Positions 22,194 through 24,969 of a stretch of DNA of 64,000 nt are shown here, piece by piece; positions within the stretch are counted from its first letter, which is position 1; every line of letters starts with the position of its first letter. Location: the NCBI RefSeq assembly GCF_002019705.1, contig NZ_KV917377.1, forward strand, positions 3,383,649 to 3,447,648, written 5' to 3'. The translations under genes were made by a program, and so were the position numbers. The stretch is from Shouchella patagoniensis (GTDB lineage Bacteria; Bacillota; Bacilli; Bacillales; Bacillaceae_D). Below the pieces are notes generated by a model. That model saw only the letters and a list, made by a program, of their open reading frames with translations. It did no database searches and was not told the origin of the DNA.

Positions 22194-22353
22194 TAAATTC
22201 GCTCCTTTAGTGTTTTAACCATTTTATTATACCTGTTTTTTCTCCTAGTCAACTAGAGGTAGGAGGGTATTATTGACCGGTTACAATGATTATAAAGTGT
22301 AACCACCAGCACTATGTTTTACTCTTATTTGTTCGATAAATCTAAATAAATGT

Positions 22354-22382
22354 TTTACTTACGTTGGATAATGGGATATGAT
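22354..22382 (+). promoter_or_regulatory. Sigma-A-type promoter of the T-box transcript
   Basis: TTTACT (22354-22359), 17 bases, TATGAT (22377-22382). The start site would be near 22389, just upstream of the T-box stem I. Confidence 0.5.
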
Positions 22383-22388
22383 AATGAG

Positions 22389-22695
22389 CAATTCTATATA
22401 AAAGGCAATGAAGAGAAGAGTAGACATTTGAACGATCTAACAGAGACCTCCGGTAGCTGAAAAGGAGGGTGAGAGAAAATGTTGAACCAAGGCTCGGAGC
22501 TGTGCACCGGATTTATGTGATTCATAAGGATGGCGCAACGGGTTCTCCCGTTATAGAGATAGAGTATCGCAGGCGTTTGTGGCCATGCCGTACTTGATGA
22601 GGCTTCTTTAGCAATAAAGAGGCAAAATGGGGTGGCACCGCGACGTAATCTCGCCCCCAAAACAAATTTGTTTTGGGGGTGAGATTTTTTTATTT
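22389..22695 (+). promoter_or_regulatory. T-box leader (tRNA-sensing antiterminator) ahead of an MFS exporter
   Basis: All T-box parts are readable: the stem I base with AGAGTAG, the AGAGA motif, an apical loop of the GGTAGCTGAAAA type between CCTCC and GGAGG, the GTGAGAGA segment, the T-box core GGGTGGCACCGCG at 22630-22642, and a terminator stem (CTCGCCCCC/GGGGGTGAG, 22650-22683) followed by a T-run. The UGGC bulge predicts a tRNA with discriminator G. After the GAA of the presumed specifier loop the bases read CCA or, one base later, CAA. With a G discriminator, glutamine (CAA) fits better than proline, but the specifier is not settled. Confidence 0.93.
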
Positions 22696-22730
22696 GGTTT
22701 TGCATGATCAAATGAAAAGGAGTGGTGTGA

Positions 22731-23954
22731 ATGTCTAGCTGGAGAAATCCGTTATTGCTATTAACTGGGATAGGCGTTTCAAATATCGGCGGATGGGTTT
22801 ACTTAATTGCACTCAATTTAATTGTATTGAATGAAACGGGTTCCCCCCTTGCGGTTGCGTTGCTTTATAGTCTAAGTCCAATTGCGACAATTTGTTCAAA
22901 TGTTTGGGCTGGTAGTTTTATTGACCGTGTGAATACGAGGAAATTAATGATTTGGTTGGATCTGTTTCGAGCATGTGGAATTGCGCTTATTCCGTTTCTC
23001 CCCTCTCTTGTTTTCGTGTATATAATTGCATTTATCATAAATATGGGGAGTGCCATCTTCCAACCGACCGCAATGGTGTATATGACAAGGTTAATTCCAA
23101 AAGAAGATCGGCAACGGTTTAATGCGCTGCGCAGCTTCATTCATTCGTGTGGGACTTTAATTGGCCCTTCGATCGCGGGCATTCTCTTTTGGTTGGGAAC
23201 CCCTTACACTGCAATTCATTTAAATGCATTCGCTCTCTTCATCTCTGCCTTTATTATTCAGCTTTTACCCAATGTAGATGTAATGAAAAAGGAAGCAATC
23301 GGTCAAAATTTAACTTGGGAGATCATAAAAAATGATTTTAAGATGGTTAAGCGCTTTAGTAAAACATCTTCCTATGTAGTAAAGATCTATCTTTTGTTTT
23401 GTGGCATGACGGTTTTTATGACCGCAATTGATTCGCTTGAATCCCCGTTTGCCAAAAAGGTTCTTTTATTAGAAGATGCTCATTACGGTTTTCTATTAAG
23501 TCTATTTGGAATAGGGATCATTCTCGGTTCGGTCATTAATTCCGTATTTACGAAGCGACTTGCGGTTTGGTTTTTAATTGGTATCGGAACCCCATTTATA
23601 GCCGTAGGTTATCTTGTTTTTTATAGTGCACAAAGTTTTTATAGCGCTGTTCTGGGCGTATTCTTAATTGGCTTTGCGATTACGTTCGCAAATACAGGTT
23701 TTTTAACGTTTTATCAAAATCATGTACCTGTTCAAATGATGGGTCGGTTTGGCAGTATGTTTGGGGTTGTTGAAGCAGTCCTAATCGTAGGACTCACAGG
23801 TTTATTAGGTGTTGCCGCAGAATTTACATCAATTAGACTAGTGGGATTCATTGGTTCTGGCGGCTTTCTCTTGCTAGGGATCTTGGCATACTTTCTAGTT
23901 ACACGAAAGAAAAGGCAAGGGTATTTTATGGAGAAGGGATTGATAGATAAGTAA
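22731..23954 (+). CDS. MFS efflux transporter under T-box control
   Basis: 407-residue, twelve-segment MFS protein. The start (NPLLLLTGIGVSNIGGWVYLIALNLIVL) and the AGSFIDRVNTRKLM motif-A loop place it in the MFS_3/macrolide-efflux/EntS-like branch of exporters, not among amino-acid importers. Ribosome site AAAGGAGTGG after the T-box terminator. Expression should rise when the cognate tRNA is uncharged. What it exports is unknown; a synthetase inhibitor or amino-acid analogue would make sense of the control. Confidence 0.85.
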   Translation: MSSWRNPLLLLTGIGVSNIGGWVYLIALNLIVLNETGSPLAVALLYSLSPIATICSNVWAGSFIDRVNTRKLMIWLDLFRACGIALIPFLPSLVFVYIIAFIINMGSAIFQPTAMVYMTRLIPKEDRQRFNALRSFIHSCGTLIGPSIAGILFWLGTPYTAIHLNAFALFISAFIIQLLPNVDVMKKEAIGQNLTWEIIKNDFKMVKRFSKTSSYVVKIYLLFCGMTVFMTAIDSLESPFAKKVLLLEDAHYGFLLSLFGIGIILGSVINSVFTKRLAVWFLIGIGTPFIAVGYLVFYSAQSFYSAVLGVFLIGFAITFANTGFLTFYQNHVPVQMMGRFGSMFGVVEAVLIVGLTGLLGVAAEFTSIRLVGFIGSGGFLLLGILAYFLVTRKKRQGYFMEKGLIDK

Positions 23955-23977
23955 AAGAGCGAAATTTGCTCTTCTTA
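23953..23977 (+). terminator. Weak terminator after the MFS gene
   Basis: AAGAGC pairs with GCTCTT around a short loop; the T-run that follows is poor. Confidence 0.4.
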
Positions 23978-24033
23978 TCTCTAAGTATTTTTTGACCGTA
24001 AAGTTGCGTTAAGTGTTAGAGGAAATCCAAATT

Positions 24034-24138
24034 GATCCAGGCGCTATTATGAATTTCCAGAATTAGAGAGAAATCAAGCCTATCGCTTTGAATTCAAAGG
24101 GCAGCAGATAACTATCTCCTTACATTTTATTAACTAGT
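24034..24138 (+). pseudogene. Possible 3' remnant of a lost gene
   Basis: A 34-codon open frame with protein-like sequence (RYYEFPELERNQAYRFEF, then ISLHFIN) follows an in-frame TGA and has no start codon. It looks like the C-terminal end of a decayed gene. The rest of 23977-24228 holds nothing recognisable. Confidence 0.25.
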
Positions 24139-24228
24139 TAGTAGAAGTTAGGAAGTGTAAAGTTAAGATATTTCAGATAATATATAGGTGTTGAGAGTAT
24201 ATGAGTGCTGAAGGGTGGAAATGAAGAG

Positions 24229-24969
24229 ATGAATGAAAAGGACTTCTACAATAAAGTAGGTCAAGTAAATGGTTGGGATTTTAGTCAAGTACAAGTTACA
24301 ACTGAAGCTGTTGCGTGGAATTTTTATGAAGAAGTACTTAAGAGAGGTAGAAGCTCTGATATTCTATTAGACATTGGTACAGGCGGAGGCGAAAACTTAC
24401 TGAACATCGCCTCTTCCTTTCATTCTTTAGTTGGAATTGATGTTTCGAGTGGCATGATGGAAACAGCAAGAGCTAATCTTAATCATTCAAACGTGTCTAA
24501 TGTCAGCTTGACACAAATGTCGTCTGAAAAATTAACGTTTCCAACCGAATCTTTTGATCTCATTACAAGTTGTCACGCACCATTCAGTGCAAGAGAAGTC
24601 GTAAATGTATTGAAAAAAGGGGGGCTTTTCTTAACGCAGCAAGTAAGTGAATTTGATAAACTTAATCTTAAAGCGGCTTTTGGTCGTGGACAATCGTTTG
24701 GTGAGAAGGAAGGGTCATTAAAAGAAAGATACATAAATGAGTTGGAAGAAGCGGGATTCTCTGATGTTCAATCAACTGAATACAACGCAACGGAATACTA
24801 TCATAGGCCAGAAGATCTTATTTTCTTATTAACACATACTCCGATTATTCCTGAATTTGGTGAAAGGGAAAATGATTTTGACATTCTTAGTGCATTTATT
24901 CAAGAAAATAAAACTGAAATAGGTATTAGAACAAACGCTAAGAGGTTTATGATTGTAGCGCAAAAGTAA
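24229..24969 (+). CDS. SAM-dependent methyltransferase
   Basis: 246-residue class I methyltransferase. Motif I is LLDIGTGGGEN, followed by the acidic residue in VGIDVSSGM, and motif post-I/IV lies in FDLITSCHAPF. The substrate-binding part is short. ATG at 24229 follows GGGTGGAAATGAAGAG; upstream in-frame codons lack a ribosome site. No operon partner identifies the substrate. Cytoplasmic. Confidence 0.8.
   Translation: MNEKDFYNKVGQVNGWDFSQVQVTTEAVAWNFYEEVLKRGRSSDILLDIGTGGGENLLNIASSFHSLVGIDVSSGMMETARANLNHSNVSNVSLTQMSSEKLTFPTESFDLITSCHAPFSAREVVNVLKKGGLFLTQQVSEFDKLNLKAAFGRGQSFGEKEGSLKERYINELEEAGFSDVQSTEYNATEYYHRPEDLIFLLTHTPIIPEFGERENDFDILSAFIQENKTEIGIRTNAKRFMIVAQK

Follow-up and report, generated by a model that had tools for sequence, protein, structure and literature searches.

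A T-box leader with a CAA (Gln) specifier precedes an exporter-like MFS transporter gene in Shouchella patagoniensis and many of its relatives

T-box leaders (Rfam RF00230) are commonly known as switches that combine a Stem I carrying the specifier, a UGGN bulge, and an antiterminator competing with a terminator. Their known targets are synthetase, biosynthesis or uptake genes, and a transporter under T-box control is classically an uptake system. The leader described here has the same architecture with a specifier of the tRNA-Gln class, whereas its target is an exporter-like gene of the MFS. The TBDB description places Gln specifiers with the two-codon families (PMC7778990). As presented in Wels 2008, one MFS gene of B. 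anthracis lies behind a T-box, is listed under Lys and is read as amino-acid transport; the same article describes decayed T-boxes in relatives, and one of its figure legends has a 'Pro or Gln' colour (PMC2494555). The arrangement resembles that of our locus and differs in the label, Lys there versus Gln here. Another T-box operon with an MFS gene, whose role is given as unknown, is described with thrS and an ArsR regulator (PMC12452182), and it differs from the present locus in its tRNA (Thr) and its arrangement. A further precedent is the T-box before mupirocin-type ileS2, an inducible second synthetase; in the present system the duplicated enzyme is GlnRS, and the target is mostly a transporter. 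Resistance through IleRS2 and the SerRS2/albomycin pair are tabulated together in one source (PMC9437257). A Gln T-box regulon was not found in the open literature searched, and an earlier Gln assignment within the major surveys is possible.

The window analysed was the whole stretch of 64,000 nucleotides from S. patagoniensis (contig NZ_KV917377.1, positions 3,383,649 to 3,447,648). Its sole Rfam match above the family's own gathering score was RF00230 at 22399-22661 on the plus strand, which also carries all features below. The match ran from Stem I to the antiterminator over the full model (1-219 of 219), scored 112.1 bits (gathering score 93; E 5.9e-24) and ended 69 bases before the MFS ORF. 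The initial annotation had proposed a complete T-box with a terminator before this gene, and both parts of that proposal were borne out. The motif AGUA at 22419..22422 aligned to the AGUA of the Rfam consensus, which we take to be the specifier-loop side of Stem I, and the specifier CAA lay at 22488..22490. The T-box core GGGTGGCACCGCG was located at 22630..22642, as originally placed, and within it the UGGC bulge facing the tRNA NCCA end occupied 22633-22636, as read from the sequence and the Rfam alignment. The Rfam consensus structure placed the antiterminator at 22629..22658. The intrinsic terminator with its T tract spanned 22647..22692 as an 18-pair stem in the terminator scan; the segment 22650-22692 folded with -26.7 kcal/mol (z -7.7), and none of 200 shuffles was equally good. 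Because 22650-22658 is common to both hairpins, the antiterminator with its UGGN bulge competes with the terminator. Folded alone, the antiterminator was no better than shuffles (z -0.24), as expected if the tRNA must stabilise it. A possible sigma-70-type promoter (TTTACT, 17 nt, TATGAT; 9/12 consensus matches) was noted at 22354..22382, with weak support since seven promoter-like sites were observed in 22200-24300 versus 5.5 expected. Judged from these elements, the leader would switch transcription of the downstream MFS gene in response to a tRNA.

Which tRNA is read depends on the register of the specifier, which had initially been given as CCA or CAA, with CAA favoured. The covariance fit aligned the stretch GAA-C-CAA-G without insertion and put CAA, a CAR codon for Gln, into the specifier columns in place of CCA. 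The reliability of these columns was assessed in the same genome, which held 19 T-box matches at E <= 0.001, using the alignments of 17 others (L013 not among them) with downstream genes named by eye. The expected codon was obtained in 14 of the 17: Val GUC, Leu CUC twice (ilvB and leuS), Trp UGG, Cys UGC, Tyr UAC, Thr ACC twice, Ser AGC, Ala GCU, Met AUG, Phe UUC and Ile AUC twice. The exceptions were L007 (hisS) with AAC, L016 with a two-base insertion, and L019 (glyQ), which was off by one. In the Rfam register the MFS leader alone read Gln among the 19, of which L013 was not displayed.

The bulge had likewise been taken to imply a tRNA with discriminator G. ARAGORN found three tRNA-Gln genes, all UUG, and all three carried G73, with which the C of UGGC pairs, whereas the Lys, Pro and Glu tRNAs read in this genome carried A73. 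The implication held for tRNA-Gln itself and failed as a general rule, since the valS, leuS and alaS T-boxes of the same genome have UGGC although the Val, Leu and Ala tRNAs read have A73. With L007 taken as Asn, the rule fitted all but these three of the 17 other T-boxes with a recognisable core. The discriminator was therefore dropped as proof of Gln and kept as support.

Several other T-boxes of this genome deserve mention in their own right. The leader before hisS (L007, G000:C1:178091-178315) read AAC (Asn) in the Rfam register and had a UGGC bulge. A thrS-like gene is preceded by two tandem T-boxes separated by 249 bases (L009/L013, G000:C1:1860610-1861080). A further T-box (L017, G000:C1:3659383-3659570) precedes a MupA-like ileS, of which the first 461 residues scored 674.8 bits against MupA, the model cut-off being meant for the whole protein; the genome thus uses a T-box in a resistance-type way elsewhere.

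To describe the distribution of the leader, 164 loci with relatives of the transporter, including overlaps, were gathered, of which 141 were non-redundant and full-length. The T-box core together with GAA-N-CAR-R was present in 103 of the 141, and the codon was CAA in every one. The base before CAA varied (C in 44, G in 28, A in 24 and T in 7), the base after it was G in 93 and A in 10, and the bulge letter was C in 97 and U in 6. The U-type bulges are covered by a G:U wobble, as at the discriminator position of 46% of Trp T-boxes according to TBDB (PMC7778990). As the first pattern required CAR, it was rerun without this requirement and then matched 105 loci, with CAA in 103, GAA in L193 and TCT in L169, the last being a second match at a locus whose first match had CAA. 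In L193 (G753), the MFS T-box (117.1 bits) had GAA (Glu) as its specifier and UGGU as its bulge, and A73 was present in the tRNA-Gln found in that genome. Of the relatives submitted to cmscan, 13 of 14 and all 9 of 9 had a T-box match, the exception being L023.

A FastTree phylogeny of the 141 placed all 103 in one clade of 127 and none among the 14 members of its sister clade, with eight label changes needed versus 33.7 with shuffled labels. The 24 clade members without the label comprised 15 of one family (f196), L023, L136, L165, four with decayed T-boxes and two that nonetheless have a T-box (L125, 76.8 bits, and L193). The f196 relatives, L023 and L136 have no T-box; with the decayed copies, they indicate that the link between T-box and MFS gene is not obligatory. 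Furthermore, the Shouchella copies were scattered over several places of the tree, which suggests that MFS gene and T-box probably travelled between species as one unit.

The leader was also searched independently of the transporter, by a pattern combining core and specifier in 397 genomes of the order. As a result, 105 sites were identified in 104 genomes, and the reversed control pattern gave none. A member of this MFS family followed 102 of the 105 sites, with two copies broken (L260 and L261): in the 42 downstream regions examined (30 + 12 loci), tblastn found the MFS gene in 39, and all 63 remaining sites lay 81-273 bases before an MFS match by coordinates. The other three targets were GlnRS genes in L259 (663.9 bits in TIGR00440) and L262 (with one in-frame stop), and in L249 (G656) a GNAT acetyltransferase ORF (PF00583, 2.4e-16) standing in place of the MFS gene. 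The T-box, its CAA specifier and the members of the regulon were thus computed directly.

Of 338 genomes of the order, 129 had a GlnRS above its cut-off, and ten of these had two. A CAA T-box (105.3-125.7 bits) preceded all ten second copies, whereas no T-box core was found within 1.5 kb upstream of the first-copy glnS in the 30 examined of the 129. The specifier context of the second copies was GAACCAAG in eight and GAAACAAG in two, and the bulge letter was U in eight and C in two; since the tRNA-Gln copies read in these genomes had G73, the U-type bulges would form G:U pairs. Two second copies were damaged, L309/G444 with a stop and L308/G500 partial. With the partial L308 left out, the nine others formed a clade of their own, 68-81% alike and 55-64% alike to first copies, and the glnS2 clade (L301-L310) looks like a spare or resistant synthetase. 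In regions of 5.9-7.5 kb surrounding the ten glnS2 genes, tblastn detected no MFS gene, the lone match being L311, included for its known MFS. Two genomes of one genus carry an additional T-box near glnS2 (L303 213-449 and L308 5438-5674), which lies on the other strand and scores slightly below the gathering threshold.

Finding these cognate genes behind the same leader class is the best evidence for a switch that reads tRNA-Gln, which we regard as almost certain. The neighbouring registers would give Lys (AAG) or Pro (CCA), and a Lys reading draws on the base after CAA, always G or A, which makes AAR equally constant, as well as on the B. anthracis MFS gene placed under Lys in Wels 2008 (PMC2494555). 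The f182 loci (for example L170), which at a guess are the MFS genes of that survey, carry GAAGCAAG, where AAG could also be read. However, a Lys reading gives no reason for the constant C, CCA cannot be read in the 59 of 103 relatives with A, G or T before CAA, the Rfam register was right for 14 of 17 other leaders, Lys and Pro tRNAs have A73, and the gene found behind the same leader is GlnRS. Both registers were rejected on register, base variation, A73 and the GlnRS target, so that a T-box reading another tRNA is very improbable, and the CAA assignment, if right, corrects the Lys-type reading that the neighbouring register invites. We consider it just as improbable that the leader is a decayed, non-functional T-box: copies judged decayed by eye exist among the relatives (L140, L141, L174 and L213), whereas the S. 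patagoniensis copy matches the full model above the gathering score and retains its strong terminator.

The gene behind the tRNA-Gln leader (22731..23954, ATG start) encodes a 407-aa MFS protein that matched MFS_1 (8.1e-30; 104.3 bits versus a cut-off of 33.4) and MFS_3 (4.6e-22; 78.6 versus 27 bits) in Pfam. A terminator-like hairpin with a weak T tail, a hit of the terminator scan, follows directly after the stop codon (23955..23973), and the gene is probably transcribed alone. The protein had been called an MFS_3/EntS-like exporter, of which the MFS_3 membership stood, and its nearest named NCBIfam relatives, all below their cut-offs, were mostly exporters (EntS, Tet, Mef and MdtH). No exporter model reached its cut-off: TIGR00900 (2A0121 H+ antiporter) gave 141 versus 319.6 bits, and the EntS, Mef and Tet efflux models, with cut-offs of 324 to 975, gave 62.7 bits or less. 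The only PDB sequence match was NorA, over about 100 residues (E 2.4e-6). In the AlphaFold model (pLDDT 80.9, pTM 0.80), Foldseek found MdfA nearest, with PepT and other importers also matched, and in VIA-align 2 the importer YegT (Z 36.5) and SotB (Z 36.4) tied. The predicted fold was as near to importers as to exporters and points to neither direction of transport. The motif GPxxxG, which we take to be the core of antiporter motif C, was constant in 127 of 127 members of the T-box clade and likewise constant in the sister group, and the longer pattern G...GP..[AG]G occurred in 68 of the 127 and in none of the 14 outside. The protein thus resembles the drug:H+ antiporters MdfA, NorA, SotB, EntS and Mef in fold, in partial sequence similarity and in GPxxxG, and differs from them in reaching no family cut-off and in sharing 10-17% identity with its structural matches. 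On this sequence evidence, export is rather probable. No conserved gene neighbour that might name the substrate was found, the best family occurring at 4 of 64 loci.

The leader had been proposed to respond to a tRNA left uncharged, as when its synthetase is inhibited. The same T-box class before a second GlnRS in ten genomes is what this proposal predicts. In S. patagoniensis itself, no GlnRS exceeded the cut-off (best 61.7 versus 425.8 bits, at the presumed gltX), and GatB was present with 600.4 bits. B. subtilis 168 is likewise not known to have a GlnRS. In the established indirect pathway, tRNA-Gln is loaded with Glu by GluRS and the product is then amidated. With GatB present and GlnRS absent, the enzyme sensed would probably be GluRS. 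As Glu-charged tRNA-Gln should already look charged to the T-box, its uncharged form would report a failure of GluRS or a lack of glutamate and not glutamine itself.

A model for the locus can be proposed, in which we infer the switching behaviour, the export and an inhibitor as the trigger. With charged tRNA-Gln(UUG), transcription would end at the terminator (22647-22692). Uncharged tRNA-Gln(UUG) would instead bind the leader by pairing its anticodon to CAA and its GCCA end to UGGC, whereupon the antiterminator would form and the MFS gene would be transcribed. The transporter would most likely export a compound that blocks the charging of tRNA-Gln, and in relatives with GlnRS the same T-box class would drive a spare GlnRS that serves the same end. 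That one switch governs a pump in most genomes and elsewhere a divergent, spare GlnRS fits an inducible answer to poisoned charging. We know of no natural inhibitor of tRNA-Gln charging for such soils, and we give a T-box response to poisoned charging roughly an even chance, as we do the explanation as a whole, in which a tRNA-Gln T-box turns on an exporter against a compound blocking that charging.

The main competing explanation, which we consider unlikely, is uptake: uncharged tRNA-Gln would turn on the import of glutamine, glutamate or a precursor through the MFS protein. It agrees with Wels 2008, where T-box-controlled transporters are taken as amino-acid importers (PMC2494555), and with the importers among the fold matches. 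The sequence relatives of the protein, on the other hand, are mainly drug or siderophore exporters; where GlnRS is absent, uncharged tRNA-Gln gauges glutamine poorly; and a second GlnRS under the switch, with the examined first-copy glnS free of a T-box, fits poisoned charging better than hunger. Less probable still is the export of an ordinary metabolite or of a product of the cell itself, for which uncharged tRNA-Gln would signal starvation in general. In favour of such an exporter, the unit is widespread, looks monocistronic and is kept over much of the order, a wide range for resistance to a single drug, yet this explanation accounts neither for the second GlnRS under the same switch nor for the absence of a conserved biosynthetic neighbour.

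Returning to export of a charging inhibitor, we tentatively propose, as the more doubtful part of our reading, that through the tRNA-Gln T-box the cell senses the need for an inducible resistance regulon, spread over this Bacillales-type order and directed against an unknown class of natural inhibitors of tRNA-Gln charging, whose outputs would be mostly the pump, glnS2 in some genomes and perhaps an acetyltransferase in one. If the explanation is true, a large family of annotated 'MFS transporters' would gain a testable trigger, uncharged tRNA-Gln, and the T-box would protect against poisoned charging and not against hunger, through a pump or a spare synthetase that can stand in for each other. 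Inhibitors of GluRS or GlnRS would then await discovery, and the pump family may, if the regulon exists as proposed, serve as a guide to that antibiotic class.
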